In this document: in pieces, positions 6,786-29,402 of the stretch
Numbering within the stretch: the stretch's first letter is position 1
Layout of the letters: every line of letters starts with the position of its first letter
NCBI RefSeq assembly: GCF_003287935.1
Contig: NZ_CP030287.1
Coordinates: 6,224,613 to 6,288,612 of the forward strand
Direction: 5' to 3'
Length of the DNA: 64,000 nucleotides
DNA from: Streptomyces sp. ICC1
Lineage (GTDB): Bacteria; Actinomycetota; Actinomycetes; Streptomycetales; Streptomycetaceae
Position numbers and translations under genes: made by a program
The notes under the pieces: generated by a model
Seen by the model: the letters and a program-made list of their open reading frames with translations, nothing else
Told to the model about the DNA's origin: nothing
Databases searched by the model: none

Positions 6786-7168
6786 GTCCCCATCCTGTGG
6801 GCGGCCCGTCCGGCGCGCCCCCGCGCTGACCCATCCGGGTCAGCGGCCGCGGAGGCGGGCGGGGGCAAGGAGCCCTCGGCTGGGGAGCACGAGGAGTAAG
6901 CGTGAGTGGAGCCACGGGCGCCGGACCGGCCGAGACTGGAGCGAACGGTGCCCGTGGCGCCGCCGCGAGATCGTCGTCAGTGTCAGAGGTGTCTAGGATA
7001 CGCCACCCATTCCGCAGGCCGCGGACGTGCCCCGGCCCCGGTTTCCAAGGGCGCGCGCCGCCCGCACCGAAGCTTTGCGCGAAAGGGGACATATCGGTCC
7101 ACCATCCACCCCTCGCCTCCCGGTCAAATAGCGGAGCGCACCCGCACCGGGCCCCGTAAGCTCCCGTC
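6786..7168. other. Divergent intergenic region, no supported gene
   Basis: It separates the hydrolase (minus) from the aminotransferase (plus). Visible are a TAGGAT -10-like box at 6994-6999, a 9-bp inverted repeat GCCACGGGC/GCCCGTGGC (6911-6919 and 6950-6958) and a TAAGCT box at 7158-7163 only a few bases from the aminotransferase ATG. An 85-codon frame from a GTG at 6902 exists, but its composition is not protein-like. Confidence 0.5.
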
Positions 7169-11885: not shown

Positions 11886-13504
11886 ACGGCACCAGGATCC
11901 GTGGCGCCGTGGTGCGCAGACGGCTGGCGGCGGCCGTGGCCCTGGCCGCGACCCTGCTCGGGGCGGGCGCGTGCACCTCCGGGGGGACGCCGGACAAGCC
12001 GAAGCAGACGGTGTACCAGGAAGGCAAGCTGCGCGTGCTGGCCTCCAGCGAGCTGGCCGACATGGACGAGGTGCTGAAGGCGGCGAAGACCGCCACGGGG
12101 GTCAGCGTGGAGCTGACCCTGTCCGGCACCCTCGACGCGGTCGAGCAGATCGCCTCCGGCGCGGCGGACGGCAAGTACGACGCCGTCTGGCTCTCCTCCA
12201 ACGACTACCTGCGGCTGCGGCCCGAGGCGGCGGGGAAGCTGTCGAGCGAGACCCCGGTGATGTCCTCGCCCGTCGCCATCGGGGTGAAGCCGCAGGCGCT
12301 GGCCCGGCTGGGCTGGAAGCCCGGGGAGGTCACCTGGTCGGCGGTGCACGAGGCCGTCTCCACCGGGAAGCTGGCCTACGGGATGACCGATCCCGTGCGC
12401 TCCAACTCCGGCTTCTCCGCGCTGGTCTCCGTCGCGTCGGGGCTCTCGGGCGCGCAGGCGGCGCTGACGGACGCGGACGTGGCGAAGGCGCAGCCGAAAC
12501 TGAAGGAGTTCTTCACCGGGCAGAAGCTGACCTCGGGCTCCTCGGGCTGGCTGGCGGCCGCCTACACCAAGCGCGGGGACGTCGACGCGCTGGTGAACTA
12601 CGAGTCGGTGCTGCTGTCCCTGAACCGGGACGCGAAGACGGACCTGACGGTGATCCGGCCGCTCGACGGCGTGGTCACCGCCCACTACCCGCTGACCCTG
12701 CTGACCTCGGCCCCGTCCGGCGCCCGCGAGTCGGGGCGGGTGCTGACCGACTACCTGCGCGGCGCCGAGGCCCAGAAGGCGATCACCGAGAAGACCTTCC
12801 GGCGGCCCGTCGGGGCCGGCGTGGCCCCGGCGGCCCCGCTGAACGCGGACAAGCGGCGCGAGCTGCCCTTCCCGGGCACCCGGTCGGTCGCGGACGGGCT
12901 GCTGGCCAGCTACGAGAACGAGCTGCGCCGCCCCTCGCGCACGGTGTACGTCCTGGACACCTCGGGCTCGATGGCCGAGGAGGACCGCATCGGACGGCTG
13001 AAGACGGCGCTCACCGATCTGACGGGGAGCGGGACCTCGGGGACCGGGCACCGGTTCCGGGACCGCGAGGAGGTGACGCTGCTGCCCTTCGGCGACAAGG
13101 TGAAGAAGGTGCTGACGCACGTGGTCGAGCCCGGGAACCCCGGACCGGCCCTGGACGCGATCCGGGGTGACGTGAAGTCGCTGCAGCCGCAGGGGGGCAC
13201 GGCCGTGTACGGCAGCCTGAAGGCGGCGTACCAGCACCTGGGGCAGGGCAACGCGGACGCCTTCACCTCGATCGTGCTGATGACGGACGGGCAGAGCGGC
13301 GACAAGGTGAAGGACTTCGACACCTTCTACGCGGGGCTGCCGGAGGCGCAGAAGCACACGCCGGTCTTCGCGGTGCTGTTCGGCGACTCGGACCGCAAGG
13401 AGCTCACCCACATCACCGAACTGACCGGCGGGCGGCTCTTCGACGCCACCGACGGCAACGGTTCCCTGGACGGAGCCTTCGAGGAGATCCGTGGCTACCA
13501 GTAG
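11882..13504 (+). CDS. Lipoprotein fusing a binding-protein domain to a VWA domain
   Basis: 540 residues. The lipobox LLGAGAC gives acylated Cys31. Residues ~40-330 form a type II periplasmic-binding fold with the SNSGFSAL anion-type loop. Residues ~350-540 form a von Willebrand A domain with an intact MIDAS: DTSGS starting at Asp359, the Thr in GGTAVYG and the Asp in MTDGQSG. It therefore displays a metal-dependent adhesion-type domain and a ligand domain on the outer membrane face. Fused and stand-alone binding domains alongside TelA suggest a surface sensing complex. It overlaps telA and the next gene. Confidence 0.88.
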   Translation: MNGTRIRGAVVRRRLAAAVALAATLLGAGACTSGGTPDKPKQTVYQEGKLRVLASSELADMDEVLKAAKTATGVSVELTLSGTLDAVEQIASGAADGKYDAVWLSSNDYLRLRPEAAGKLSSETPVMSSPVAIGVKPQALARLGWKPGEVTWSAVHEAVSTGKLAYGMTDPVRSNSGFSALVSVASGLSGAQAALTDADVAKAQPKLKEFFTGQKLTSGSSGWLAAAYTKRGDVDALVNYESVLLSLNRDAKTDLTVIRPLDGVVTAHYPLTLLTSAPSGARESGRVLTDYLRGAEAQKAITEKTFRRPVGAGVAPAAPLNADKRRELPFPGTRSVADGLLASYENELRRPSRTVYVLDTSGSMAEEDRIGRLKTALTDLTGSGTSGTGHRFRDREEVTLLPFGDKVKKVLTHVVEPGNPGPALDAIRGDVKSLQPQGGTAVYGSLKAAYQHLGQGNADAFTSIVLMTDGQSGDKVKDFDTFYAGLPEAQKHTPVFAVLFGDSDRKELTHITELTGGRLFDATDGNGSLDGAFEEIRGYQ

Positions 13505-14105
13505 GACGTCCGGGATCCTCGGGTACCTGGAGTCGAAGAAGAACCTGGCCGGCAGCGCCTGCGGCGTGGTCGGGGTGGGCCTGACGCTGGCCGGGGTGGC
13601 CGGCACGTACTGGCCGGTCGTGGTCGGCGGACTGTACGCGGCGGGCGCGCTCATCGCCCCGCCGGACGTGCCCGCACCCCCGGTGCCCCCGGAGCCCGCC
13701 GAGCAACTGGGCTTCGTACGGGAGGACTTCGCGCGGCTGCGGGAGTACGTCGGCGAGGTGGACCTGCCGGCGGAGCCGGCCGGGATCCTGGCCGAGCTGC
13801 TGGCGCTGTACGCGGCGATGCTGGAGCCGGGCTGGGTGGCCGGCGTCCTGGCCGGCGACCCGGAGGCGGTGCACGCGCTGACGCGGGCGATCCGGACGGA
13901 CGTCCCGGAGTGCGTGGACACCTACAACCGGACCCGCTGGTGGACCAGGCTCACGCCGGGCGGGGAATCGCCGGAGCGCCACCTGGAGCGGCAGCTGTCG
14001 CTGCTGCGCGAGGAGGCGGAACGCGTGACGGCGGACCTCCGTGAAACGGAGGCCCGCCGCCAGCAGACGCACACGACCTATTTGGAAGGCCGCAGGGAAA
14101 CCTGA
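13491..14105 (+). CDS. Membrane protein completing the TelA operon
   Basis: 204 residues from a GTG overlapping the VWA gene by 14 nt. Two closely spaced hydrophobic segments (residues ~20-55: SACGVVGVGLTLAGVAGTYW then VVVGGLYAAGAL) make a hairpin. A Pro-rich turn (PPDVPAPPVPPEPAE) and a cytoplasmic-looking helical domain follow, ending in a charged coiled coil (LERQLSLLREEAERVTADLR). The pattern suits a membrane adaptor linking surface sensors to TelA, an inference from context. Homologues outside this operon were not recognised. Confidence 0.7.
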   Translation: MATSRTSGILGYLESKKNLAGSACGVVGVGLTLAGVAGTYWPVVVGGLYAAGALIAPPDVPAPPVPPEPAEQLGFVREDFARLREYVGEVDLPAEPAGILAELLALYAAMLEPGWVAGVLAGDPEAVHALTRAIRTDVPECVDTYNRTRWWTRLTPGGESPERHLERQLSLLREEAERVTADLRETEARRQQTHTTYLEGRRET

Positions 14106-14128
14106 GTCGGGGAATCCCGCGTCGACCC

Positions 14129-14150
14129 GCGGCCGGGGACAGCCGGCCGC
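14129..14150. terminator. Hairpin between convergent telA operon and pckG
   Basis: GCGGCCGG and CCGGCCGC arms (8 bp) around a 6-nt loop lie 24 nt after the last operon gene and 26 nt past the pckG stop. Confidence 0.55.
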
Positions 14151-14175
14151 AGGAGCTTCATGTGAGTGGCCGGGT

Positions 14176-16050
14176 TCAGCCGAGGCGCTCGACCAGGGCC
14201 TCGTACTGGTCCCACAGCTCCTTCGGCGTGTGGTCGCCGTAGGTGTTCAGGTGCGCCGGGACCAGCGAGGCCTCGTCGCGCCAGACCTCCTTGTCGACCG
14301 TGAGGAGGAACTCCAGGTCGGCGGCGGGCAGGTCCAGGCCGTCGGTGTCCAGGGAGGCCACGGTCGGCAGGATGCCGATCGGGGTCTCCACGCCCTCCGC
14401 GGTGCCGTCGAGGCGCTCGACGATCCACTTCAGGACGCGGCTGTTCTCGCCGAAGCCGGGCCACACGAACTTGCCCGCGTCGTTCTTGCGGAACCAGTTC
14501 ACGTAGTAGATCTTCGGGAGCTTGGACTGGTCCTTGCCCTTGGCCACGTCGACCCAGTGACCCATGTAGTCGCCCATGTTGTAGCCGCAGAACGGCAGCA
14601 TGGCGAAGGGGTCGCGGCGCAGCTCGCCGACCTTGCCCTCGGCGGCGGCGGTCTTCTCGGACGCGATGTTCGAGCCGATGAAGACGCCGTGGTTCCAGTC
14701 GAAGGACTCGGTGACCAGCGGCACGGCGGAGGCGCGGCGGCCGCCGAAGAGGATCGCGGAGATCGGGACGCCCTTGGGGTCCTCCCACTCGTCGGCGATC
14801 GTCGGGCACTGGGAGGCCGGGACGGCGAAGCGGGCGTTGGGGTGGGCCGCCGGGGTGTCGCTCTCCGGGGTCCAGTCGTTGCCCTTCCAGTCGATGAGGC
14901 GGGCGGGCGCCTCTTCGGTCATGCCCTCCCACCAGACGTCGGAGCCGTCGGGGGTGAGCGCGACGTTGGTGAAGACGGTGTTGGCGTACATCGTCTTCAT
15001 GGCGTTGGCGTTGGTGTGCTCGCCGGTGCCGGGCGCGACGCCGAAGAAGCCGGCCTCGGGGTTGATCGCGTACAGGCGACCGTCCTCGCCGAAGCGCATC
15101 CAGGCGATGTCGTCACCGACGGTCTCGACGGTCCAGCCGGGGATCGTGGGCTCCAGCATGGCCAGGTTCGTCTTGCCGCAGGCGCTCGGGAACGCGGCGG
15201 CGATGTACCTGGGCTCGACCGAGCCGGCGGCGGAGGCCGGCGGGGTGAGCTTGAGGATCAGCATGTGCTCGGCGAGCCAGCCCTCGTCGCGCGCCATGAC
15301 GGACGCGATGCGCAGCGCGTAGCACTTCTTGCCGAGCAGGGCGTTGCCGCCGTAGCCCGATCCGTAGGACCAGATCTCGCGGGTCTCGGGGAAGTGCGAG
15401 ATGTACTTGGTGGTGTTGCACGGCCACGGCACGTCGGCCTGGCCCTCGGCGAGCGGAGCGCCGAGGGTGTGGACGGCCTTGACGAAGAACCCGTCGGTGC
15501 CGAGCTCGTCGAGGACGGGCTTGCCCATGCGGGTCATGGTGCGCATGGCGACGGCGACGTAGGCGGAGTCGGTGATCTCGACGCCGATCGCGGAGAGCTC
15601 GGAGCCGAGCGGGCCCATGCAGAAGGGCACCACGTACATGGTGCGGCCCTTCATGGAGCCGCGGAAGATGCCGCCCTCCTCGCCCTTGCCGGCGAAGCCC
15701 CCCTCACCGGTAAAAAGGGCCTTCATCTCGGAGGGGGCCTTCCAGTGGTTGGTCGGGCCCGCGTCCTCCTCCTTCTCGGAGCAGATGAAGGTCCGGTCCT
15801 CGACGCGCGCGACGTCGGAGGGATCGGAGGCGGCGTAGTACGAGTTCGGGCGCTTGGCCGGGTCCAGCTTCTTGAAGGTGCCCTTGGAGACGAGCTCCTC
15901 GCAGAGGGCCTCGTACTCGGACTCCGAGCCGTCACACCAGACGATGCGGTCCGGCTGGGTGAGGGCCGCGATGTCGCCGACCCAGGAGACCAGCTCCTGG
16001 TGGTTGGTCGGGACGTCGGAAGTGGTGCCAGCCGCGATGTCGCGCGCCAC
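14176..16050 (-). CDS. pckG: Phosphoenolpyruvate carboxykinase (GTP)
   Basis: 624 residues. It converts oxaloacetate and GTP to phosphoenolpyruvate in gluconeogenesis. The kinase loop with the reactive Cys is [12 protein letters not shown]; other signatures are the MGPLGS substrate motif, [16 protein letters not shown], and [18 protein letters not shown]. The length fits the GTP-dependent family, not the ~540-residue ATP form. The GTG start has AAGGAGCG six nt upstream. It is divergent from the hemolysin III gene across 210 nt that hold a palindromic operator on the far side. Confidence 0.97.
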
Positions 16051-16239
16051 GATCGCTCCTTGTTGAGGGGTTTGATTGGTGTTGCCCCGTGGGGGCCGCG
16101 ACCCGGACGCTTCGCGCTCCGCTCATCCGGTGCCGACCGCACTCATCTGATCATCCGGTGGATGTGCGCATATGTCCAGAGGGCCTCTCACGTGAGCATC
16201 GCCACTCCGGTCAATCTTCCGTAAAGCGCACTAACGGAA

Positions 16240-16257
16240 ACCTACGCAACCGTAGGT
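16240..16257. promoter_or_regulatory. Palindromic operator ACCTACG-CAAC-CGTAGGT
   Basis: Perfect 7-bp arms around a 4-nt spacer end 3 nt before the first ATG of the hemolysin III-like gene, where they would cover its -10 region. Arms of this kind are typical of TetR-family operators in Streptomyces, but the regulator is not in the window. Confidence 0.6.
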
Positions 16258-16260
16258 AGC

Positions 16261-16968
16261 ATGGCCGGCATGACTTCTGACGCCGCTGCCGTGGCCGCTC
16301 CGGTGGTCGAACCGGCCGATCCGGAGGCCGATCCGGAGGCCAAGCCGCTCATGCGCGGCTGGCTGCACACCGGCATGTTCCCCGCCGTGGTGATCGCCGG
16401 CCTCGTCCTCATGGCATTCACCGACTCGACCCGGGCCCGGGTCGCGTGCGGGGTGTACGTCCTCACCGCGTGCCTGCTCTTCGGCGTCAGCGCCGTGTAC
16501 CACCGGGGTACGTGGGGTCCGCGCGGCGAGGCCGTCCTGCGGCGGCTCGACCACGCCAACATCTTCCTGATCATCGCGGGCACGTACACACCGCTGACCG
16601 TGCTGCTCCTGCCCGACTCCAGCGGGCGGACCCTGCTGTGGGCGGTCTGGATCGCGGCGGCGGCCGGCATCGCCTTCCGCGTCTTCTGGGTCGGCGCCCC
16701 GCGCTGGCTGTACACCCCCTGCTACATCGCGATGGGCTGGGCGGCCGTCTTCTTCCTCCCCGAGTTCATGCGGACCGGCGGGATCACGGTCCTGGTGCTC
16801 GTCATCGTGGGCGGACTCCTCTACAGCGCCGGCGGGGTCATCTACGGCATGAAGCGCCCGAACCCCTCCCCGCGCTTCTTCGGCTTCCACGAGGTGTTCC
16901 ACTCGCTGACGCTCGCCGCGTTCGTGGCGCACTACGTCGGCATCTCACTGGCCGCCTACTCGCACTAG
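16261..16968 (+). CDS. Hemolysin III / TrhA family membrane protein
   Basis: 235 residues, seven membrane helices of the PAQR/hemolysin III family. The metal-site residues are all present: Ser and His in GVSAVYHRG, Asp in DHANIFLIIAGTYTP, and two His in GFHEVFHSLTLAAFVAHYV. Bacterial TrhA proteins act in membrane-energetics or lipid homeostasis. The first ~30 residues are an acidic Ala/Pro tail; a second ATG at codon 4 is an equally good start, and a -10-like box inside the upstream palindrome would give a leaderless message. A lipid-linked regulator would fit the operator, but this is inference. Confidence 0.9.
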   Translation: MAGMTSDAAAVAAPVVEPADPEADPEAKPLMRGWLHTGMFPAVVIAGLVLMAFTDSTRARVACGVYVLTACLLFGVSAVYHRGTWGPRGEAVLRRLDHANIFLIIAGTYTPLTVLLLPDSSGRTLLWAVWIAAAAGIAFRVFWVGAPRWLYTPCYIAMGWAAVFFLPEFMRTGGITVLVLVIVGGLLYSAGGVIYGMKRPNPSPRFFGFHEVFHSLTLAAFVAHYVGISLAAYSH

Positions 16969-16979
16969 CGCCGTGACCA

Positions 16980-17030
16980 GGCCACGACCGGGGGCCGGCC
17001 GCGTGCGCGGCGGGGCCCCCGGTCGTGGCC
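16980..17030. terminator. Strong bidirectional hairpin terminator
   Basis: A perfect 17-bp stem (16980-16996 with 17014-17030) around a 17-nt GC-rich loop lies between the convergent hemolysin III and YyaL-like genes. Confidence 0.85.
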
Positions 17031-17037
17031 GGCCGCG

Positions 17038-19101
17038 TCAGGGGCGGGCCGTCCCCAGCTGATCCGCGAGCTCGGCCGGATCCGTCGTGGGGCGGGCGCA
17101 GACGAAGTGCCGGCAGACGTACGCCGTCGAGAGCCCGTCCACGAGGGTCCGCTCGGCGAGCAGCGGGAACTCGCCGCCGCTGCCGTCCGCCGCCTGCGGC
17201 AGACCGGTCGCCACCACCGCCCCGGGAGCCGTACCCAGCAGCGCGGTGCGGTGCAGCGCCTCCCGCGCCCGGTCCTGCGGATGCCCGACGACGGCGACCT
17301 CGCGCGGCCCGTCGACGAGCGCCTCGGCCACCGCCAGCCCGTGCCCGATGAAGCGCGGCGCGCGCGGCCCGAGCGCGTGCACCACGGCCAGCGCCCGCTC
17401 GGCCGCCGTGCGGTGCGGCTCCGAGCCGGTGTGCGCGGCGTACGAGAGCAGCGCGCCGGCGGCGGCGGTCCAGCCGGAGGGGGCGGCGGTGTCGGTCGGG
17501 TCCTGGGGCCGGCGGATCAGCCGCTCCGCGTCGTGCGCGGTGTCGTACAGCGTCCCGTCCTCGGCGGTGAACCGGTCCAGGACCAGGTCCACGAGGAACC
17601 CGGCGAACTCCAGCCAGACCCCTTCGCCGGTGACCGCGGCCAGCGCCAGGAACCCCTCCGCCACGTCCCCGTAGTCCTCCAGCACGCCGGCGTTGGCCCC
17701 GACCTGCCCGTCCCTGCTCGTCCGCGCCAGCCGGGCCCGCCCGGCCGCCGCGTCGAAGTGGACCCGTACGAGGAGGTCCGCGGCCTCGGTGGCCCGCTCG
17801 ACCAGGTCGGGCCGGTCGAAGAAGGCCCCGCACTCGGCGAGGGCGGCGACGGCCAGTCCGTTCCAGGCGGCGACGATCTTGTCGTCGCGCCCGGGCGCGG
17901 GCCGGGCGTCGCGGGCGGCCAGCAGCCGCTCCTTGATGCCCGCGAGCCGCTCCGGGGCGATGTCCGGGCCGTCGGCGGGGAGTTGCAGCACGGACGCCCC
18001 GTGCTCGAAGGTCCCCTCCCCGGTCACCCCGAAGCAGGCGGCGGCGAGCGCCGCCTCCTCCTCGCCGAGCACCTCGCGCAGCTGGGCGGGGGTCCAGGCG
18101 TAGTAGGCCCCTTCCACGTGCTTCCCGGTGGCCGGGTCCTCGCTGTCGGCGTCGAGGGCGGAGGCGAAGCCGCCCTCGGAGGTGCGCAGTTCGCGGACCA
18201 TGAAGTCGGCGGTCTCCAGGGCCACGCGCCGGGCGAGCTCCGATCCGGTCGACCGCCACAGGTGTGCGTACACCCGACAAAGCAGGGCGTTATCGTAGAG
18301 CATCTTTTCGAAATGCGGTGTCACCCACTCCCGGTCCACGGAGTAGCGCGCGAACCCACCCCCGAGCTGGTCGTAGATGCCACCCCGAGCCATGGCTTCA
18401 CACGTGTCGGCGGCCATCTGCAGCGCCCCCTCGGACCCGGTCCGGGCGTGGTGGCGCAGCAGGAACTCCAGCACCATGGACGGCGGGAACTTCGGCGCCC
18501 CGCCGAATCCGCCGTGCACGGAATCGAACTCCCGCGTCAGGCCGAGCAGCGCCTGCGCGAGCTCCTCGGGACCGGGCGTGCCCGCCTTCCCGTAGTCGAG
18601 CTTGCGCCCCGCGAGGTCCCGTACGATCCGCTGCGCGACCTCGGCGACCTCCTCGGGCCGCCCCACCCAGGCGGTCCGCACGCCTTCGAGGACATGCATG
18701 AAGGACGGCATGCCGTGCTTGGGCTCGGGCGGGAAGTAGGTGCCGAAGTAGAAGGGCTCGGCGTCGGGGGTCAGGAACACGGTCATGGGCCACCCGCCCT
18801 GCCCGGTGGCCGCCTGCACGGCCTCCATGTAGACGGCGTCGATGTCGGGGCGCTCCTCGCGGTCCACCTTGACGTTGACGAAGTGCTCGTTCATGTAGAC
18901 GGCCGTCAGCTCATCCTCGAAGGACTCGTTGGCCATGACATGACACCAATGACAGCTCGAGTAACCGACGCTCAGCAGGACGGGCACCCCCCGCTCCCGC
19001 GCCTCCGCGAAGGCCTCCGGGGACCAGGGCCACCAGTCGACGGGGTTGTCGGCGTGCTGGAGCAGGTAGGGGGAGGTCTCGTTCGCGAGGCGGTTCGGCA
19101 T
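17038..19101 (-). CDS. YyaL/SSP411-type thioredoxin-domain protein (DUF255)
   Basis: 687 residues. The ATG preceded by AGGATGG is preferred over a GTG six codons upstream. The N-terminal thioredoxin-like domain (1-~165) has the family opening [21 protein letters not shown] and the redox motif [10 protein letters not shown]. The rest is an (alpha/alpha)6 barrel like N-acylglucosamine 2-epimerases and glycoside hydrolases, with the conserved [17 protein letters not shown] and [12 protein letters not shown] segments. Activity is unproven for the family. It is cytoplasmic and follows the metallopeptidase gene on the same strand with a ~68-nt gap. Confidence 0.9.
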
Positions 19102-19169
19102 GGGGCCATCCTGCCGCACCGGGTCACCGCGCCCGACGACCCCGGCGCCGGTGTCCCGCCCCGGGTCGG

Positions 19170-19910
19170 TCAGTGGCGCAGGAGGGGGGCCAGGGTCTCG
19201 GTCCAGGTGGTGCGGGTGCGGGTCCAGGTGGCGGCGCAGTCGGAGCGGGCCGGGGTGGCGAGGTCCTTGTGCTCGGCGGGGAACGCGCCCTGGACGGCGC
19301 AGCGGTGGGACTCCGCGCGGGCGGCGTCCGGGGCGTGCACGTCCGTGGGATCGGGGGGCTGCTCGGCGGCCCCGGCGTCGTAGGCGCGGGCTGCCGTCAG
19401 GAGGGTGTCGTCGCCCTCGGGGTCGCGGGTCAGCAGCGCGACCTGGGCGAAGCGGTCGGCGGCGTCCTCCTCGGCGCGGTCCCCCTCGTCCGGGAGGTCC
19501 AGCGCGTCGATGAGGGCGTGGCCCGCCTCGTGGTACAGCGTCTCCCGGACGGTCTCGGCGAGGTCCTCGTCACGGCCGAACAGGTCGCGCTGCTCGGTCA
19601 GATCGTCGTAGCAGAGCTCGATGCGGCGGGTCTCGGGGTCGTAGCCGGTGCCCTCGCCGTGGCAGGACCGGGCGACCACGGTGACCCGGTGAGGGAGCTC
19701 GACGTAGTCGTTGAGGTCGTCGACGGTGAGCTCGACGAGGCCCCAGCTGGTCAGGAAGCGGTGGTGGGGCCGGTCGGCCGCCACGGGCTTCTCGTAGCGG
19801 ACCGCGAAACCCTGTTCCGGCAGGGGGGCTTGCGGCCAATCGCAGCAGGTCGCCGCGGAGAGCAGCGCCGCGGCCGCGCACAGTTCCCGAGTCCCCCAGC
19901 GTCTGCCCAC
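19170..19910 (-). CDS. Secreted DUF4344-like zinc metallopeptidase
   Basis: 246 residues. The short N-terminal hydrophobic stretch ([15 protein letters not shown]) looks like a lipoprotein or secretion signal with adjacent Cys residues. The zincin motif is intact in [16 protein letters not shown], followed by an acidic [11 protein letters not shown] helix typical of DUF4344 putative metallopeptidases. Two Cys in ARSCHGEG and IELCYDDL could form a disulfide. The start is a GTG with only a weak SD. The substrate is unknown. It diverges from the NB-ARC gene. Confidence 0.8.
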
Positions 19911-19931
19911 CCGACCACCCTATGCGACCGG

Positions 19932-19960
19932 TTGAGCGTCAACTCCCTCTGAACTAGCTC
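19932..19960 (+). promoter_or_regulatory. Candidate promoter of the NB-ARC gene
   Basis: TTGAGC and TAGCTC are 17 nt apart, close to the housekeeping Streptomyces consensus. The -35 lies within a small palindrome GTTGA-GCG-TCAAC (19931-19943), a possible operator in the divergent region shared with the metallopeptidase. Confidence 0.5.
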
Positions 19961-20034
19961 AGATTCCCTCGCGCTCGCGACCGTACCGAAGGACACTTGT
20001 GACACGGTGCCGGAGCTCTCTGAGGGGGATGCCG

Positions 20035-21381
20035 ATGCGGGACAGCCATCGCGGTGAGGCCGAGCGACTGCTGGGACGGGCCGTGGACGAGGAAGCCCGG
20101 CGGGGCGCGGGCGGGGCCGCCGGGACCCCGGAGGCCAAGGCGGCGCTGCTCGCCCGCGGCAAGGAGGCGCTGGACGCGCTCGCGGCGAGCGCCTCCGCCG
20201 AGTACGAGGCGTACGCACGGGCCCTGGACGAGGCCGCGGCGGGGGACGAGTCGCTGGGCGAGGCCTTCCGGCGTGCGAACACCTCGACGGCGCTGCTGGT
20301 GACGGCCGTGGCCGCGGCCGCCGCGGTCGGGGCCGACCTGGCCTTCGGCGTGGCGCTCGGCACGGCGCTGACCGCCGGGGCCGTCACGGGCGTGGCCGGG
20401 GCCACGGCCACCGTCGTCAAGGTGACCGCCCTGCACCTGCCGGCCGCGAACCGGCGCGCCGGTGAGCTGGGCCGCCCGGGCGGCACGGAGCAGCTGAAGC
20501 TGCAGTGGCTGTCGGCCCTGGAGGTGCGCGGGATACGGCCGTTCCTGGAGCAGCAGCGCAAGGTGGCGGCCGCGGCCGCCCGCGCCACCCACTCCTCCCC
20601 CGGCCACACGAACGGGAGCACCGGGGGCGGCTCCGCCGCCCGCCCCACCAACCGCAGCGCCGAGGCCCGCAGGCGGAGCATGCTGGAGCAGTCCTTCGGC
20701 CAGCTCCCCGAGCTCGACGGGGTGTTCGCGGGCCGGCGGGCGGAGCTGGCCCGGATCGCGCAGTGGGTGCAGTCCGCCCGGGCCAGCACCGAGACCCGCC
20801 CGGTGGTCGTGGTGCTGCACGGCGAGCCCGGCGTGGGCCGCACCACGCTGGCGCTGCACGCCGCGCAGGCGCTGCGGGACCAGTTCAAGGGTGCCTGCGT
20901 GGTGGACCTGCGGGGCGGGGCGGCCGAGACTCCGCTGCCGACCCGCGAGGCGCTGCTGCACCTGATGAACCGGCTCGGCGCCCCCCGGGAGCAGCTGCTC
21001 TTCCGGGAGGGCTCCTCGGCGGAGCAGCAGGTGCGCAGGCTCGGCGAGCTGTACCACCAGCACCTGCAGGGCACGCCGGTGACGGTGGTCCTGGACGACG
21101 CCGTCGACGCCGCGCAGGTACGGACGCTCGTGCCCGAGCGCTCCGAGAGCCTGGTCCTGGTCACGGCACGGGAGCCGCTGGACCTGGCCGCGGGCCAGGC
21201 GGCCTGGGTGTACCAGCTGCCGGTGTCGCGGCTCACGGCGGAGGCGGGCGCCGAGGTGGTCCGGGCGTCCGCGGGGCCCTCGGCGGCCGACAGGCCCTCG
21301 GGGCGCCGCGCGGTCCCGAGGGGGGCCAGTACGCGCAGCGCCAGCGGCAGCCCCGCACCCAGCGCGAGCAGCCCCCGCAAG
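20035..21381 (+). pseudogene. NB-ARC (STAND) ATPase gene, broken at a chimeric join
   Basis: The start is the ATG 7 nt after GAGGGGG (20022-20027). Residues ~80-125 form a hydrophobic hairpin (VTAVAAAAAVGADLAFGVAL), so the protein is membrane-attached. The nucleotide domain follows: P-loop GEPGVGRTT (263-271), Walker B region VTVVLDDAVDA and a VLVTAREPL sensor strand. Recognisable protein stops near GAEVVRA (~21265). The GLPLAL motif that should come next is instead on the opposite strand: the reverse complement of ~21270-21381 reads LLALGAGLPLALRVLAPLG. The 3' part is therefore inverted and then lost. The plus frame stays open to 22635 only as antisense of the haem permease. Confidence 0.75.
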
Positions 21382-21416
21382 GTCTCCTCGGGCTCGGAGA
21401 TGTGTCAAAGAGACAG
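21382..21416. other. Nextera transposase-adapter-like sequence (likely chimeric junction)
   Basis: Positions 21398-21416 match the 19-nt Tn5 mosaic end AGATGTGTATAAGAGACAG at 17 of 19 bases (only 21406-21407 differ). The preceding GGGCTCGG and GTCTC match the rest of the Nextera read-2 adapter apart from a small substitution/indel at 21387-21389. It lies exactly between the broken NB-ARC gene and the start of the gene after hmuU. It is most simply an uncleaned library adapter that joined unrelated reads. Confidence 0.8.
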
Positions 21417-21448
21417 TTCCTGCGGAATGCGGCGAACAGGACGCTCAC
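21417..21448 (-). pseudogene. Start of the gene after hmuU (expected hmuV), cut by the join
   Basis: A GTG overlapping the hmuU stop opens MSVLFAAFRRN and then runs straight into the adapter-like sequence. In haem importers the permease gene is followed by the ATPase gene hmuV, so this is probably its first codons or those of another operon gene. Too short to identify. Confidence 0.35.
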
Positions 21449-22608
21449 GCCCAGCCTCCTTGCTTGCGGCGGGTGCGGCGCAGCAGCCAGAAGAAGAACG
21501 GGCTGCCGAGCAGGGCGGTCAGCACGCCGAGCGGCAGCTCGGCGGGCTGGGCGAGGGTCCGCGCGGCCAGGTCTGCGGCGACGAGCACCACGGCCCCGGC
21601 GAGCGCGCTGCCCGGGACCAGGAATCGGTGGCCGGGGCCGTTGGCCATGCGCAGCAGGTGCGGGACGAGGAGCCCGACGAAGGTGATGATGCCGGCCACG
21701 GCGACCGCGGCCGCCGTCAGCAGCGCGACGACCAGGATCAGCGCGAGCCGCAGCCGCTCCACGTCGACGCCGAGGTGGCGGGCCGGCCGCTCACCGAGCG
21801 AGAGCAGGTCCAGCTTGCCCGCGTAGAAGGGGGCGACCAGCAGGCCGGCGAGGGCGCAGGGCAGGACGGCGAGGACCTTGGGCCAGGTGGCCTGGGCGAG
21901 GGAGCCGAGCTGCCAGAAGGTGATCTGGTTGACCTGGCCGCTGTCCGCGAAAAAGATGAACAGGCCGATCAGGGCGCCCGCGAAGGCGTTGACGGCGATG
22001 CCGGTGAGGATGAGGGTGACGACCTCCGTCTTGCCGCCGTTGCGGGAGAGCAGGTAGACGGCGCCGACGGTGATGAGCCCTGCGACGAACGCGCAGGCGG
22101 TGACGGTCCAGTTGCCGAAGAAGCTCAGGCCCAGCCCGATCGCGGCGACCGCGCCGACGGCGGCGCCCGCCGAGATCCCGATGACCCCGGGCTCGGCGAG
22201 GGGGTTGCCGAACACCCCCTGCATCAGTGCTCCGGCGCAGCCCAGGCTGGCCCCGACGAGCAGGGCGAGCACCACGCGGGGCAGCCGTACGTTCCACAAC
22301 ACGCTCTCGCCGACCCGGTCGAGGGCGGCGCCCCCGAGCCCGAGGCGGTGCTGCACCGAGCCGAGCACGTCGCCGAGCGGGATCTCGTAGGCCCCGACCC
22401 CGGCGGAGACGAGCGCGAGCAACAGGAGGACGCCGGCGAGGGCGGCGCTGAGCAGCATCGAGCGGGCCGGGCGGAAGCCGGCGCGGCCGGCGGCCGCCGG
22501 GGTGCCCGCCGAGCTGCCCGCCGGGGTCCCGGCCGCCGCGTCGTCCTGCGTGCCGGGGGCCGCGCCGTGCGGCGCGGCCCCCGGCACCTTGTCGTGGGAA
22601 ATCGTCAC
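21445..22608 (-). CDS. hmuU: Haem ABC transporter permease (FecCD family)
   Basis: 387 residues. After an Ala/Gly/Pro-rich cytoplasmic head (~45 residues) come about ten membrane helices of the FecCD/BtuC family, with LPRVVLALLVGASLGCAGALMQ-type and NPLAEPGVIGISAGAA signatures and the late FVGLLVPHLLR segment that contacts the ATPase. It imports haem delivered by HmuT. The GTG start lies one nt after the hmuT stop. The next gene, expected to encode the ATPase, is cut after ~11 codons, so the importer is incomplete in this sequence. Confidence 0.92.
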   Translation of the reverse strand: MTISHDKVPGAAPHGAAPGTQDDAAAGTPAGSSAGTPAAAGRAGFRPARSMLLSAALAGVLLLLALVSAGVGAYEIPLGDVLGSVQHRLGLGGAALDRVGESVLWNVRLPRVVLALLVGASLGCAGALMQGVFGNPLAEPGVIGISAGAAVGAVAAIGLGLSFFGNWTVTACAFVAGLITVGAVYLLSRNGGKTEVVTLILTGIAVNAFAGALIGLFIFFADSGQVNQITFWQLGSLAQATWPKVLAVLPCALAGLLVAPFYAGKLDLLSLGERPARHLGVDVERLRLALILVVALLTAAAVAVAGIITFVGLLVPHLLRMANGPGHRFLVPGSALAGAVVLVAADLAARTLAQPAELPLGVLTALLGSPFFFWLLRRTRRKQGGWA

Positions 22609-22609
22609 G

Positions 22610-23623
22610 TCATACCTTGCCGTAGAGCTGTGTGATCAGAGAGGTCAGGGCCTGGTCGGTGCGCGGACCGTAGTTCAGCAGCACCCCGTCGTCGACGGTG
22701 ATCACCCGCCGGTCCATCCCGGCGGGGGTCTGCGCGATGCCCGGGATCTTCACCAGGCCGTCCATGCCGCCGACCGACTCCAGGCCCTTGGACATGACCA
22801 GGATCGCGTCGGGCGCGGCGGCCGCCAGGGCCTCGCTCGTGATCGGGGTGAAGTCCTTGCCGAGCCCGGACTCCGTGCCGGTGTCCACCGCGCCGGCCGC
22901 GTCCAGCAGGGAGCCGGCGCCGGAGTCGGAGCCGCCCATCAGGTACACGGAGGCGGTGCCGCGCAGGTAGAGGAAGGCCACGCGCGGCTTCTTCCCCGAG
23001 GCGGGCAGGCCCTTGCGGGCGGTGGCGATGCGCTCGGCGGTGCGCTGGTTCAGCTGCGTCCCGGCCTCCTTGACGCCGAGCGCGGCGGCGACCGCGTCGG
23101 TGCGCTTCGCCACGTCGTCCAGGGACTTGGCCGGGGCCACCACGAGCAGCGGGATGCCGGCGTCGCGGATCTGCTGGATCGCCTCGGCGGGGCCGGAGGT
23201 GGTCTCGGCCAGCACCAGCGTCGGGCGCAGCGACAGCACGCTCTCGGCGGAGACGTCGTGGCCCCGCGTCACCACGGGGAGGTCCGCCGCCTGTTCGAAG
23301 GTGGCGGTGATGTCCCGGGCGACGACCTTGGGGCCGAGCCCGAGGGTGTACACGATCTCGTTCAGGCTGCCGGTCAGCGGCACCACCCGGTCCGCCGAGG
23401 CGACGGTGACCCGGGCGCCGTCCGCGGAGGCCACGGTCGCGGGAAGCACCGGTACGGGCGCCTGGGCGAGCGGCTCCACCCGGTCCGGGACGGCGGGGGC
23501 GCCGGCTCCGGGGGCGGAGGGGGTGGCCGTACCCCCGCAGGCCGCCACGCCGAACGCCAGGACCAGTGAGGTCACGGCAAGGGCGAGGCGGGGCATGCGG
23601 GTTGACGCGGCGGGCGTAGGCAC
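22610..23623 (-). CDS. hmuT: Haem-binding lipoprotein of the ABC importer
   Basis: 337 residues. The GTG start has AGGACGG 7 nt upstream. The signal peptide ends FGVAAC with Cys29. The mature part is a cluster A-III (BtuF/HmuT) binding protein: two lobes joined by a long helix, with LTGSLNEIVYTLGLGPKVVARD at its entry (quoted in two parts by family: LTGSLNEIVY and LGLGPKVVARD) and GGMDGLVKIPGIAQTPAG near the end. It captures haem outside the membrane, probably handed over by the HtaA proteins encoded divergently. An iron box lies in the shared 155-nt promoter region. Confidence 0.92.
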   Translation of the reverse strand: MPTPAASTRMPRLALAVTSLVLAFGVAACGGTATPSAPGAGAPAVPDRVEPLAQAPVPVLPATVASADGARVTVASADRVVPLTGSLNEIVYTLGLGPKVVARDITATFEQAADLPVVTRGHDVSAESVLSLRPTLVLAETTSGPAEAIQQIRDAGIPLLVVAPAKSLDDVAKRTDAVAAALGVKEAGTQLNQRTAERIATARKGLPASGKKPRVAFLYLRGTASVYLMGGSDSGAGSLLDAAGAVDTGTESGLGKDFTPITSEALAAAAPDAILVMSKGLESVGGMDGLVKIPGIAQTPAGMDRRVITVDDGVLLNYGPRTDQALTSLITQLYGKV

Positions 23624-23733
23624 GAAGGCACCGTCCTGATCGTCCGACTGGAAGCGGGATTGGCTGGAAAAGCATCCCGGTTCACCGTTCAAGTTCCGGG
23701 TGCCCGGGGGTTTCCCGCCCGGCCGGATGTAGC

Positions 23734-23750
23734 TTAGGTTAGCCTAACCT
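23734..23750. promoter_or_regulatory. Iron box (DmdR/DtxR-type) between hmuT and htaA
   Basis: TTAGGTTAGCCTAACCT is nearly identical to the 19-bp DtxR/IdeR/DmdR1 consensus palindrome. It lies 29 nt before the HtaA start and 111 nt before hmuT, so Fe2+-loaded repressor could silence both divergent units. Confidence 0.9.
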
Positions 23751-23778
23751 CGTCTGCTAGACCCTGGAGGGGACATTC

Positions 23779-25230
23779 ATGTCCGCAAGACCCGCCCGTG
23801 CTTCCGCCGTCGCCCTGCTGGCGACCCTGGCGGCCCTGCTGGGAGCCCTGCTCCCGGCGACCGCCGCCCAGGCCGCGGACCGCACCGTGGAGGGCGGCCG
23901 ACTTGACTGGGGCATCAAATCCTCCTTCCAGAGCTATGTCACCGGGCCGGTGGCCAAGGGCGGGTTCAAGCTGAAGAGCGGCGCCGCCACCGTCGGCGGC
24001 AGCCTGTTCCGCTTCCACTCGGCGAACGGCTCCTACGACCCGGACGCGGGCTCGCTGCAGGCCTCCTTCAGCGGCGGCGTCACCTTCCAGGGCCACCAGA
24101 AGCCTGACGGCACGTACGAGCTGGAACTCAGCGTCAGCCGCCCCACCGTCAAGATCAGCGGCGGCAGCGGCACCCTCTACGCGGACGTCTCCAGCAAGGC
24201 CAAGGAGGGCGGAGCGGTCACCACCGCCTCCCAGGTCCCCTTCGCCAAGCTGGGCCTGGGCGCGGTGAACATGAAGGGCGGCGGCACCCCGATCGCCCTC
24301 ACCAACATCCCGGCCACCCTCACCGACCAGGGCGCCAAGGCCTTCGCCGGCTACTACACGGCCGGCGCCCAGCTCGACCCGATCTCGCTCTCCGTGGACG
24401 TCAAGGCCGCCCCCGCGGCCGAGCAGCCCGCGCAGACCCCGAGCGCCCCGGCCGAGACCCCGGAGGCCTCGCAGGCCCCGCAGGCCGCGGGCGCGTTCAC
24501 CGACGCCGCCGTGGACTGGGGCGTACGGCGCACCTTCCGTGAGTACGTCTCCGGTTCCATCGGCCAGGGCAAGTGGGAGCTCGCCGAAGGCGCGCAGGAC
24601 GGCGGCGCGCTGTTCCGCTTCCCGCAGGGCAAGGGCGTGTACGACGGCGGGAAGGGCACCCTCGACGCCGCCTTCGCCGGCTCCGTCCACTTCACCGGCG
24701 CCCACCTCGACCTGAAGCTCACCAAGTTCACCGCCAAGGTGGAGAACGGCAAGGGCGTCCTCTCCGCCGACGTCACCAGCGGTGCCGACACCAAGCCCGC
24801 GGTCCCGCTCGTCGAGTTCGACGCCAAGGGCCTCAAGACCGAGGGCGGCCTCGCCACCCTCACCGAAGCCCCGGCCACCCTCACCGAGGGCGGCGCCCAG
24901 GCCTTCAACTCGATGTACAAAGCGGGCACCGAGATGGACCCCGTCTCGCTCGCCGTCGTCCTCGACGGCGCCGCGAAGCTCCCCGCGCTGCCGAACCTCG
25001 GCTCCACCGCCTCGCCCCCGGCCCCCGCGGAGCCGGCCCCGGCCGCCGCCACGAAGGCCGAGGACACCTCGAACACCGGCCTGTACGCCGCCCTCGCGGT
25101 GGCCGTCCTGGTCCTCGCCGGCGGAGCTGCCTTCCTGGTGGTCCGCAAGCGCCGTACCGACGCGGCCGCCGCCGCGGCCGCCGGAGCGGACGGGGCCGCG
25201 GACGCCGCCGATCCCGCGCGGCGGGACTGA
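23779..25230 (+). CDS. Cell-surface haem-binding protein with two HtaA domains
   Basis: 483 residues. A signal peptide (~1-33, cleaved after AAQA) is followed by two HtaA domains (~37-205 and ~245-400), each starting with a DWG(I/V)(K/R)-type strand (LDWGIKSSFQSYV and VDWGVRRTFREYV) that carries the haem-ligand Tyr in characterised HtaA proteins. The C-terminus has one membrane helix and a basic tail (VVRKRRTD), without a clear LAXTG motif, so it is membrane-anchored. HtaA proteins take haem from haemoproteins and pass it to HmuT. The message probably includes the second HtaA gene 81 nt downstream. Confidence 0.92.
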   Translation: MSARPARASAVALLATLAALLGALLPATAAQAADRTVEGGRLDWGIKSSFQSYVTGPVAKGGFKLKSGAATVGGSLFRFHSANGSYDPDAGSLQASFSGGVTFQGHQKPDGTYELELSVSRPTVKISGGSGTLYADVSSKAKEGGAVTTASQVPFAKLGLGAVNMKGGGTPIALTNIPATLTDQGAKAFAGYYTAGAQLDPISLSVDVKAAPAAEQPAQTPSAPAETPEASQAPQAAGAFTDAAVDWGVRRTFREYVSGSIGQGKWELAEGAQDGGALFRFPQGKGVYDGGKGTLDAAFAGSVHFTGAHLDLKLTKFTAKVENGKGVLSADVTSGADTKPAVPLVEFDAKGLKTEGGLATLTEAPATLTEGGAQAFNSMYKAGTEMDPVSLAVVLDGAAKLPALPNLGSTASPPAPAEPAPAAATKAEDTSNTGLYAALAVAVLVLAGGAAFLVVRKRRTDAAAAAAAGADGAADAADPARRD

Positions 25231-25311
25231 CCGCCGGCTCCCGCCCCACGCGGCTCCTTCTTCCGCCCCCCTTTCCTTCTCTTTCCCGTCCCGTTTCAGG
25301 AGACCCCAGCC

Positions 25312-26769
25312 ATGTCATCCAGCCGCCGCCCGGTCGCCATCGCGGCCGCCATCGCCACCGCCGCCGCGATAGGCGCCACCGCGTTCGTCCTGCCCGCCAC
25401 CGCGGCGGGCCGTACGTCCGTGGCCCCCGCGGCGGGCCCGACCGCGCCGATCCCGGTCATCGGCGGCACCCTCGACTGGGGCGTCCTGGAGGCCTACCGC
25501 ACCTACGTCACCACCACCGCCAAGGGTGAGATCACCGTCGCCGACGGCGCCACGAAGACCGACAAGGGCTTCCAGTTCGGCGAGGCCACCGGCCAGTACG
25601 ACCCGGCCAACGGCCACGTCGTGACCGCCGCCTTCAAGGGCAGCGTCACCTTCAAGTCCGCCGCGCACCACTTCGAGGTGAAGCTGGCGAACCCGCGCAT
25701 CGACACGGGCAAGAAGAAGCTCGTCGTCGACGTCACCCGCGACGGCACGCTCACCGCGGACGTCCCCTTCGCCGACGTGGCCTTCGGCCAGGGCCCGATG
25801 ACCAACCTGGTCACCACCCTGACCGCGCAGGCCGGCACGCTGCTCGGCTCCGACACCTACGCGGGCAAGGCCGGTGACCCGCTGACGGCCGTGCTGAAGT
25901 TCCCGGCGCCGCCGACGAGCCCGTCGCCGTCCGTCTCCGCTTCCGCCTCCGCCTCCGTGTCGGCGTCCGCGTCCGCGTCGGCTTCGGCGTCCGCCTCGGC
26001 CTCCCCGTCGAAGTCGGCCTCCCCCTCGGCCTCCGTGAGCTCCCCGGCCACCGACGGCCCGCAGCAGATCCTCAGCGGCAAGCTGGCCTGGGGCATCAAG
26101 GAGTCCTTCCGCAAGTACGTCCAGGGCGCGGGCGGCACCGTCACCCCGGCCGACGGCGCGGTCGCCAACGGCGACAGCTTCGCCTTCGGCGCCGGCAAGG
26201 GCACCCTGGACACCAAGACGCAGAAGCTGAACGCCTCCTTCGCGGGCAACCTGCGCTTCCAGTACGCGGCCCACGGCATCGACATGACCTTCGGCAACGT
26301 CCGCATCGACACCGAGGGCGCCAAGGGCACCCTGGTCCTGGACGTGAAGACCGCCACGGCCACCAAGACCAACGTCCCCTTCGCCACGCTCGACCTGTCG
26401 AAGGCCGAGTACAAGACCAAGGACGGCCTGCTCGCCCTGAACGCCGTCCGCACGGCGCTCACCGCCGAAGGCGCCGCGGCCTTCGCCAACGACACCACCG
26501 GCTCCATGTACAAGGCCGGCGACCGGGTGGACGACGTCAACCTCACCGTCTCAGTGGACAAGGACGCGGTCCTGCCGACCAGCACCCCCACCACCGGCAC
26601 GACGGCCGCGGCCACCACGGGCGGCACGGGCGGCAGCGTCGGCGGCAACCTCGCCTCCACCGGCGCCGAGATCCCGGCCGGCGCCCTGCTCGGCGCCTCC
26701 GGCGCCATCGTCGCCGCCGGTGCGGGCGCGGTGTTCATCGCGCGCAGGCGGTGTACGGCCCAGAACTGA
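25312..26769 (+). CDS. Sortase-type HtaA haem-binding protein with Ser/Ala stalk
   Basis: 485 residues. Signal peptide (~1-32), HtaA domain 1 (~45-200, opening LDWGVLEAYRTYV), a Ser/Ala/Pro low-complexity stalk (~203-245), HtaA domain 2 (~255-415, opening LAWGIKESFRKYV), then a sorting signal: LASTG at 447-451, a hydrophobic helix and RRR. LAXTG is the class E sortase motif of Streptomyces, so this protein is probably wall-linked, in contrast to its membrane-anchored upstream partner. The start has CAGGAG nine nt upstream. Together they would form an outer and an inner step of a haem relay. Confidence 0.92.
   Translation: MSSSRRPVAIAAAIATAAAIGATAFVLPATAAGRTSVAPAAGPTAPIPVIGGTLDWGVLEAYRTYVTTTAKGEITVADGATKTDKGFQFGEATGQYDPANGHVVTAAFKGSVTFKSAAHHFEVKLANPRIDTGKKKLVVDVTRDGTLTADVPFADVAFGQGPMTNLVTTLTAQAGTLLGSDTYAGKAGDPLTAVLKFPAPPTSPSPSVSASASASVSASASASASASASASPSKSASPSASVSSPATDGPQQILSGKLAWGIKESFRKYVQGAGGTVTPADGAVANGDSFAFGAGKGTLDTKTQKLNASFAGNLRFQYAAHGIDMTFGNVRIDTEGAKGTLVLDVKTATATKTNVPFATLDLSKAEYKTKDGLLALNAVRTALTAEGAAAFANDTTGSMYKAGDRVDDVNLTVSVDKDAVLPTSTPTTGTTAAATTGGTGGSVGGNLASTGAEIPAGALLGASGAIVAAGAGAVFIARRRCTAQN
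25918..26043 (+). repeat. Ser/Ala-coding low-complexity repeat in the HtaA stalk
   Basis: Tandem TCC/GCC/TCG/GCG codons encode alternating Ser and Ala with interspersed Pro and Lys. The codons vary while the amino acids do not, which suggests selection on a flexible wall-spanning linker rather than recent slippage. Confidence 0.8.
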
Positions 26770-26788
26770 GCCGTGCTTCAATGCCCGC

Positions 26789-27448
26789 GTGAACGATCTC
26801 GACGTCCTGAAGGTCTTCTGCGCGGGTGACGGCGGCCACGGCAACCTGCTCGGCGTCGTGCGCGACGGCCGCACCTGCCCCGACGACGCGTCCCGGCAGG
26901 CGCTGGCCGCCGAACTCGGCTACAGCGAGACGGTGTTCGTCGACGACCCCGAACGCGGGGTCGTCGACATCCGCACCCCCGGCACCCGGATGTCCTTCGC
27001 CGGGCACCCGCTGGTCGGAGTCGCGTGGCTGCTCGACATCGAGGAGCTCCAGCCCCCGGCGGGCACCGTATGGGCGCGCGACGACGGTGAGTTCACCTGG
27101 ATCACCGCCCGCCCCGAGTGGGTCGAGGGCAAGCGCACGGAGCAGTACGCCAGCGCCGCCGAGGTCGAGGCGCTGCCCGCCCCGCCGCCGGGCGAGGGCT
27201 GGCTGTACGCCTGGGCGTGGGAGGACGAGGCCGCGGGCCGGATCCGGGCCCGCGGTTTTCCGCGTCGGCCCGACGGGGCGATCGCCGAGGACGAGGCCAC
27301 CGGCTCGGCGGCGATCCTGCTGACGGCCGAGCTGAACCGGGCCCTGAACATCACCCAGGGCGCGGGATCCCAGATCCTCACCGCCCCGTGCCCGGACGGC
27401 GCGGTGGAGATCGGCGGCCGAGTCCGCTTCGACCCGGGCACCGGCTGA
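26789..27448 (+). CDS. PhzF-family isomerase-like protein
   Basis: 219 residues from a GTG 19 nt after the HtaA stop. It has the PhzF/DapF fold signatures: Glu of SETVFV (the PhzF catalytic-type Glu), SFAGHPLVG in the first half and DEATGSAAILL in the second. It is shorter than most PhzF-like proteins (~260-300), with a compact middle. The known member isomerises a dihydroxyanthranilate in phenazine synthesis; most relatives have no known substrate. Its tight placement in a haem-acquisition operon is unusual and hints at a role in processing a haem-derived or chelating metabolite, which is speculative. Confidence 0.8.
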   Translation: MNDLDVLKVFCAGDGGHGNLLGVVRDGRTCPDDASRQALAAELGYSETVFVDDPERGVVDIRTPGTRMSFAGHPLVGVAWLLDIEELQPPAGTVWARDDGEFTWITARPEWVEGKRTEQYASAAEVEALPAPPPGEGWLYAWAWEDEAAGRIRARGFPRRPDGAIAEDEATGSAAILLTAELNRALNITQGAGSQILTAPCPDGAVEIGGRVRFDPGTG

Positions 27449-27600
27449 CGGAACCTCACGCGGGCACGCCGGGCGCGCGGGGCACACCGAACGCGCCGGG
27501 CACACCTGGCGCGCCGACGGGCACGGCGCACGGCCGCGGGACGGCGCCGGTCGGCCGGTCGGCCCGTAGCGCGGCGCCGGCGACCGGGGCCGCACAGCCC

Positions 27601-27633
27601 GGAAGGGGCGGGCCCGCAGGGCCCGCCCCTTCC
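27601..27633. terminator. Perfect 15-bp hairpin terminator
   Basis: GGAAGGGGCGGGCCC and its exact complement flank a GCA loop between the convergent PhzF-like and haem oxygenase genes. The preceding ~100 nt hold imperfect repeats of GGCACACC/GGCGCGCC type. Confidence 0.9.
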
Positions 27634-27654
27634 CCGTTCAGCCCTCCGCAGGAG

Positions 27655-28302
27655 CTACGCACTCATGGGGAACTGCTCGCCCAGCTCCCGGAACACCGCG
27701 CCGTTGAAGTCGAAGGCGCGCTTGCACTCGTCGATGATGCGCTGCTTCTCCAGGTCGTCCGCGGCGATCGCGTCGAGCAGCTCGCGGTAGGTCCGCTTGA
27801 AGGCGGCCGGGTTGGAGATGTCCGCGAAGACGTAGAAGCGGACGCCGTCGCCCTTGCGCTCGAAGCCCCAGGTCCGCTCCGCCTTGTCGCGGATGATCTG
27901 GCCGCCGGAGAGGTCGCCCAGGTAGCGGGTGTAGTGGTGGGCGACGTAACCGCCGGGCCAGGACGCGGCGCACTCGGCCACGCGCGCGGCGTACGCCTCG
28001 GTGGCCGGCAGCGCCACCAGCGTCTCGCGCCACTCGGGACCCCGCAGGTGGGCGAGGTCGCGCTCGATCTCGGCCAGGCGCATCAGCTCGGGCTGAATGA
28101 ACGGCCCGGCCACCGCGTCGTCCTTGAGGGCCTCGGCAGCGTCCTCCAGAGCCCGGTACACGAACCACAGCTGCTCGGTGTAGCGGGTGTAGGCGTCCAC
28201 CCCGAGACGGCCGCCGAGCAGGTCGCTCATGAAGGTCGAGGTCTCGGCCTCGGTGTGCTGCTCGTGAGAGGCGACACGGATGACGGTCGAGAAGGCGTCC
28301 AA
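27655..28302 (-). CDS. hmuO: Haem oxygenase (HmuO-like)
   Basis: 215 residues. It opens haem to biliverdin, CO and Fe2+ in the cytoplasm. The proximal haem-ligand His is in ASHEQHTEAETS (His16), and the distal-helix Gly motif is intact in YLGDLSGGQIIRDKA. The TTG start is chosen because GGAGGT stands five nt upstream and the homologous sequence begins there; the frame extends further upstream without likeness to the family. An iron box 73 nt upstream places it under the same control as haem uptake, completing an uptake-and-degradation regulon. Confidence 0.93.
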   Translation of the reverse strand: MDAFSTVIRVASHEQHTEAETSTFMSDLLGGRLGVDAYTRYTEQLWFVYRALEDAAEALKDDAVAGPFIQPELMRLAEIERDLAHLRGPEWRETLVALPATEAYAARVAECAASWPGGYVAHHYTRYLGDLSGGQIIRDKAERTWGFERKGDGVRFYVFADISNPAAFKRTYRELLDAIAADDLEKQRIIDECKRAFDFNGAVFRELGEQFPMSA

Positions 28303-28374
28303 GGCGGACCTCCGAGGAATCGGAAGAAACGGGGAAAAGGCGTGGCGGCCGTGCCGCCACACCCGATCTTCCTA

Positions 28375-28390
28375 CTTAGGCAAACCTAAG
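28375..28390. promoter_or_regulatory. Iron box upstream of haem oxygenase
   Basis: CTTAGGCAAACCTAAG: perfect 6-bp arms of the DtxR/DmdR palindrome, CTTAGG and CCTAAG, around CAAA, in the only A/T-rich part of this promoter region. Confidence 0.85.
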
Positions 28391-28485
28391 TCAATGTGTT
28401 CCCGACGCCTTGTCGGTAAAAGTTTCAAGAACCGCTCACGCGGGGGCCGGAGCCGGCTCGGGGCCGGCTCGGGGCCGGCTCGGGG

Positions 28486-29343
28486 TCAGGGCAGCGTCAG
28501 GATCTCCGCCCCGGTGTCCGTGACCACCAGCGTGTGCTCGAACTGCGCGGTGCGCTTGCGGTCCTTCGTGACGACCGTCCAGCCGTCCTCCCACATGTCG
28601 TACTCGTGGGTGCCCAGGGTCAGCATCGGCTCGATGGTGAAGGTCATCCCGGGCTCGATGACGGTGGTGGCGTGCGGGCTGTCGTAGTGCGGGATGATCA
28701 GGCCGGAGTGGAAGGACGAGTTGATCCCGTGCCCGGTGAAGTCCCGGACCACGCCGTAGCCGAAGCGCTTCGCGTACGACTCGATGACCCGGCCGATGAT
28801 GTTGATCTGGCGGCCCGGCCTGACGGCCTTGACGGCCCGGTTCAAGGACTCGCGGGTGCGCTCCACGAGCAGCCGCGACTCCTCGTCCACGTCCCCGCAC
28901 AGGTACGTGGCGTTGTTGTCTCCGTGCACCCCGCCGATGTACGCGGTCACGTCGAGGTTGACGATGTCGCCGTCCTTGAGGACGGTCGAGTCGGGGATCC
29001 CGTGGCAGATGACCTCGTTGAGCGAGGAGCACAGGGACTTGGGGAAGCCGCGGTAGCCCAGCGTCGAGGGATAGGCGCCGTGGTCGCACATGTACTCGTG
29101 GGCGACCCGGTCCAGCTCGTCGGTGGTCACCCCCGGCGCGATCAGCTTGGCGGCTTCTTCCATCGCCTGGGCGGCGATCCGGCCGGCGATGCGCATGGCC
29201 TCGATCGTCTCGGCCGTCTGCACCTCCGGTCCGGTGTACGGAGTGGGCGCGGGCTTGCCCACGTACTCGGGCCGGCGGATGTTTCCGGGAACGGAACGGA
29301 CGGGAGTGAGCTCGCCTGGTACGAGCAGCGACTGGCCAGACAT
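28486..29343 (-). CDS. map: Methionine aminopeptidase, type I
   Basis: 285 residues. It removes the initiator Met from new proteins. All five metal ligands of the pita-bread fold are visible: Asp in [11 protein letters not shown], Asp in HGDNNATYL, His in [12 protein letters not shown], Glu in [10 protein letters not shown] and Glu in [10 protein letters not shown]. The ~40-residue N-terminal extension ([13 protein letters not shown]) is the actinobacterial form that contains an SH3-binding-like region. No good SD is seen. Downstream, GGCTCGGGGCC is repeated three times (28455-28485). Confidence 0.96.
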
Positions 29344-29402
29344 ACGAGCGAGTGTATCGACCGGGTATGGGGCAGCATGGCGACAGAGAGAGGAGCCTGA
29401 CG

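Follow-up and report, generated by a model that had tools for sequence, protein, structure and literature searches.

The one-contig genome of Streptomyces sp. ICC1 (G000:C1, 9,034,319 bp) is almost certainly a pseudomolecule of 9.03 Mb, in which short-read contigs were joined while still carrying untrimmed Nextera adapter at their ends, and one of these joins lies between positions 21390 and 21391 of the window, i.e. of the whole 64-kb stretch analysed here (G000:C1:6224613-6288612). The two genes broken at this point are a product of assembly error, not of biology, and no natural feature is present there. Direct observations carry this reading: the adapter itself, 127-bp overlaps, displaced halves of both genes and a break of synteny (coordinates of all features are collected in Table 1).

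Table 1. Features of the window related to the joins (positions of the window; strand as + or −, a dot where none applies)
Feature	Position	Strand	Evidence or remark
Another Nextera adapter (read 1), more degraded	6971..7003	+	25/33 vs maximum 21/33 in 20 simulated controls
AAA_16/NB-ARC-like NTPase gene, N-terminal part, cut by contig end	20032..21283 (limits approximate)	+	Pfam; 28 homologous loci
127-bp contig-end overlap	21264..21390	−	inverted piece of the NB-ARC-like gene; runs on in G000:C1 from 5886035 to lower positions
False join of two assembly contigs	21390..21391	.	127-bp exact repeat ends here; sides 0.7-6.5 Mb apart in relatives
Nextera read-2 adapter remnant (7-nt arm and 19-nt mosaic end)	21391..21416	+	24/26 identical; first bases of right-hand contig
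hmuV stub, 10 codons and 2 bases	21417..21448	−	remainder at G000:C1:8074925-8075701, minus strand
hmuU-like haem/iron ABC permease (FecCD), intact	21445..22608	−	Pfam FecCD 319 bits; relatives
hmuT-like substrate-binding protein ORF, upstream of hmuU	22610..23692	−	named by position and eye
127-bp exact repeat, four copies in genome, probable contig end	35800..35926	.	repeat search of G000

Adapter remnant and broken genes at the junction

The sequence AGATGTGTCAAAGAGACAG (21398–21416, + strand) coincides with the 19-bp mosaic end of Tn5 at 17 of 19 positions, as the initial annotation had pointed out. It is the sole site in the window with no more than three mismatches, and 100 shuffles produced none. 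Directly 5' of it, GGCTCGG (21391–21397) reproduces the end of the read-2 arm in 7/7 letters. The bases further upstream had also been assigned to the adapter. A gapped alignment of the read-2 adapter with 21382–21416 matches 31/34 letters with one inserted base, and the ungapped match over the segment reaches 26/34 versus a maximum of 23 in 20 simulated windows. This part of the claim stood for the seven arm letters only: the full 15-nt read-2 arm is absent before the mosaic end, and the resemblance beyond these 7 nt belongs to genomic DNA. Namely, GTCTCCTCG (21382–21390) represents the terminal bases of a 127-bp stretch (21264–21390), which is exactly repeated at G000:C1:5885909-5886035 and is continued there by other sequence with no adapter after it, and its complement is present in relative L019. 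Since the 127-bp stretch ending in GTCTCCTCG recurs without adapter, the adapter proper is confined to 21391–21416.

On the left side the junction interrupts a gene previously described as NB-ARC. By Pfam it is foremost AAA_16 (41 bits, above the cut-off of 32.6), and the former name survives only as “NB-ARC-like”, its score of 20.9 bits being below the curated cut-off of 23.5. The gene is indeed broken at the join, but not exactly at the adapter, since its reading frame is gone about 100 nt earlier, near 21283, and the segment of ~21290–21390 belongs to the same gene in inverted orientation. The second half was found on the opposite strand, at G000 position 5,886,034 and below, which is 360 kb away. 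Of 28 homologous loci, 27 have these two halves side by side and one (L030) stops at that very point; in none of the 28 does the hmu side stand beside the first half. The unaligned linker between the halves takes 8 to 456 bp across relatives (90 bp in L019), so a short stretch is probably missing from G000 here. The inverted tail of ~100 nt might have been produced beside this unassembled stretch by an assembler path that folded back across a short inverted repeat.

On the right side the gene following hmuU is cut where it had been noted, though not after 11 complete codons: the stub begins with GTGAGCGTCCTGTTCGCCGCATTCCGCAGGAA, comprises 10 codons and meets the adapter two bases into the 11th, whose last base the adapter supplies. 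An ABC ATPase gene (hmuV) follows hmuU in 7/7 relatives examined, within the 1.1 kb read downstream; they were taken from the eight genomes with the best hmuU, the eighth, G015, being left out. With the hmuV of a relative as query, the rest of the gene was located in G000 1.83 Mb off (Table 1), with 80% identity over 259 residues, the second-best match having 41% identity. None of the nine permease matches in G000 is situated near this displaced hmuV, and the closest of them is ~145 kb away. Comparison with a plasmid collection gave just matches of 60–80% identity, mostly permease among the matches listed.

The two sides of the junction were then placed on seven relatives using positions 12500–21263 (left) and 21445–35799 (right) of the window. 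They turned out to be separated in all seven: by ~2.8 Mb in G004, 3.0 Mb in G005, 6.5 Mb in G007 and 0.7 Mb in G010, where hmuU itself was matched, and by ~3.4 Mb in G009, 2.8 Mb in G012 and 1.1 Mb in G014, where placement of the right side rests on window positions 26770–31200 (G009 and G012) or on one match (G014). The comparison of hmuTUV and NB-ARC gene synteny in relatives, proposed as a check by the initial annotation, places the true neighbours of both genes elsewhere. With the missing gene parts found in other places and the sides 0.7–6.5 Mb apart in relatives, its assumption that the adapter marks a false join between sequences from different parts of the genome proved correct.

Adapter copies in the whole genome and in relatives

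The search for mosaic-end sites with no more than three mismatches registered 88 forward and 74 reverse copies in G000, 162 altogether, while the reversed-pattern control gave one forward and no reverse match. An exact mosaic end is absent among these 162 sites, which demands an extra assumption that exact copies have been trimmed or masked. Sites with at most two mismatches (93 in number) accumulate in the terminal part of the contig (KS p = 2e-16), and the first nine megabases contain 4, 2, 4, 3, 6, 3, 15, 21 and 29 of them, respectively. Some sites form head-to-head pairs, for instance 869010 minus with 869066 plus and 4221340 minus with 4221373 plus, and such pairs are expected where a contig ending in adapter meets a contig starting with it.

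In 20 scanned relatives, 14 had no site at all and the other six contained 49. The 27 forward sites all begin no farther than 112 bp from a contig start, and of the 22 reverse ones 21 finish no farther than 65 bp from a contig end, so that 48 of the 49 are located at contig termini with a three-mismatch site in G011 as the sole exception. The reversed-pattern control matched once in G004 and once in G012. Thus, what is internal to the contig in G000 sits at contig ends elsewhere.

Sites with substitutions only were inspected in detail within 864 kb of G000, which included 69 of the 162. This portion was chosen rather than random and comprised the window and its surroundings, the terminal 400 kb and a further 18 stretches, most of them situated at listed sites. 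Masked bases directly precede eight of the 69 sites. Among the remaining 61, 39 continue into the terminal letters of one of the two arms, read-1 or read-2 (no more than one mismatch in seven), against a background of about 0.9%, and 22 do not. If three mismatches are allowed, the full read-2 arm is recognized at 11 sites and the full read-1 arm at 23. The octamer CATGCCTA, which we take to be the Nextera index N706, stands immediately before two of these 11 read-2 arms and its near variants precede several others; no recognisable index was seen in the eight bases before the 23 read-1 arms. Changes at A or T letters were biased, 120 of 133 leading to G or C, and position 14 is altered in 28 of the 69 sites. 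The altered letters can be read as errors of sequencing, carried by copies that trimming missed. Runs of N in the examined G000 DNA (26–47 bp long) were found within 38 bp of a site in eight cases out of nine, and those beside sites look like later masking. Just outside the window (L075, G000:C1:6289190-6289226) an N run of 37 bases directly precedes an adapter-like site and itself looks like a masked adapter.

Origin of the joins and alternative explanations

Exact repeats of at least 100 bp were also searched for in the same 864 kb, giving 37 pairs, in which lengths of 127, 128 and 130 bp occurred 15, eight and three times, respectively. The lengths of the remaining pairs lie between 103 and 289 bp; pairs sharing a copy are not independent. 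One copy of a 127-bp repeat ends on the final base of the contig. The peak of long exact repeats at 127 bp is a mark of de Bruijn assembly with k=127, the contigs of which were placed end to end. The course of events could then be as follows. A Nextera library would have been sequenced in short reads, and trimming would have missed those adapter copies that bore sequencing errors. In an assembler of the de Bruijn type (k=127) contig ends may have run into the missed copies. The contigs would subsequently have been set one after another, perhaps by falling length, the rising density of sites looking as if the long ones came first, to yield the pseudomolecule of 9.03 Mb. At 21390|21391 the tip of the contig with the NB-ARC-like gene would thereby have met the start of the hmu contig, i.e. 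26 nt of read-2 adapter.

One chimeric molecule in the library, with an adapter ligated or mis-primed between two fragments, might have created just this join while the rest of the chromosome was correct, and an adapter lying between two unrelated sequences is what it would leave. Yet 162 such sites are present in the same contig, the 127-bp contig-end overlap found at this join has many counterparts elsewhere, and within the window a second adapter accompanies a second break of synteny, which makes this scenario highly improbable. Even less credit can be given to a real rearrangement, either a Tn5-like insertion or a natural inversion, that would have broken both genes and left a chance likeness to the adapter or a natural transposon end. 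Its one attraction is that the mosaic end was derived from natural Tn5 ends. But letters of the read-2 arm adjoin the mosaic end here and the presumed library index is found before such arms at other sites. A Tn5-like element should also have a second outside end, and no second one with three mismatches or fewer was found in the window, only this one site being present. Moreover, the absence of sites from 14 of 20 relatives and their location at contig ends in 48 of 49 cases among the other six do not fit this explanation. The initial annotation considered natural origin of the adapter together with two broken genes very unlikely. Hence the concatenation of adapter-ended contigs is retained as the explanation, and the junction gives no evidence for gene fusion, inversion or operon rearrangement.

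Other joins and their consequences

The degraded read-1 adapter at 6971–7003 marks another join near position 6970. Synteny is interrupted around it (~6658 to 7146) in 6/6 relatives, where the two sides are ~0.2 to 2.5 Mb apart. Near 31200 matches stop in 6/7 relatives and no adapter is present; this break is a candidate for either a join or a natural strain-specific region. Several parts of the window have short near-copies in G000. The segment 14470–14652, a piece resembling PEP carboxykinase (named by eye), is reproduced with 96% identity at G000:C1:6457921-6458103, ~40 bp from an adapter site, and similar near-copies exist for 3909–4099, 6845–6967 and 10925–11257.

Once the artefact is recognized, the apparent gene fusion, operon break and gene order at this point can all be dismissed as false. 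Gene order across such joins is not to be trusted, and probably many other junctions of the one-contig G000 are artificial. In studies of synteny, gene clusters or gene loss this genome should be treated as a draft of many contigs. Chances seem about even that the phenomenon is general, i.e. that adapter copies with errors escape trimming and screening, are still present at contig ends in numerous public genomes of actinobacteria and betray concatenation in one-contig entries. Adapter-like sites at contig ends were present in 5/20 relatives. If so, a mismatch-tolerant scan for the mosaic end with a reversed-pattern control could be a cheap way to detect falsely closed species representatives. 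The papers listed in literature searches, judged from the openings of their abstracts, offered nothing direct on adapter-marked false joins, and no claim about published work is built on them.

Two kinds of known objects are comparable with what was found here. In draft assemblies with Nextera adapter at contig ends the same mosaic end and read-2 arm occur in the same orientation, forward at contig starts and reverse at contig ends; the difference is that in G000 such ends are hidden within a single nominal contig, which makes the adapter look internal, while in the draft relatives it stands at the ends of contigs. Pseudomolecule drafts concatenated without gap spacers resemble G000 in 127-bp overlaps, displaced gene halves and broken synteny, and compared with concatenated pseudomolecule drafts as such the join at 21390|21391 is distinguished by the absence of an N spacer, nothing else essential being different.
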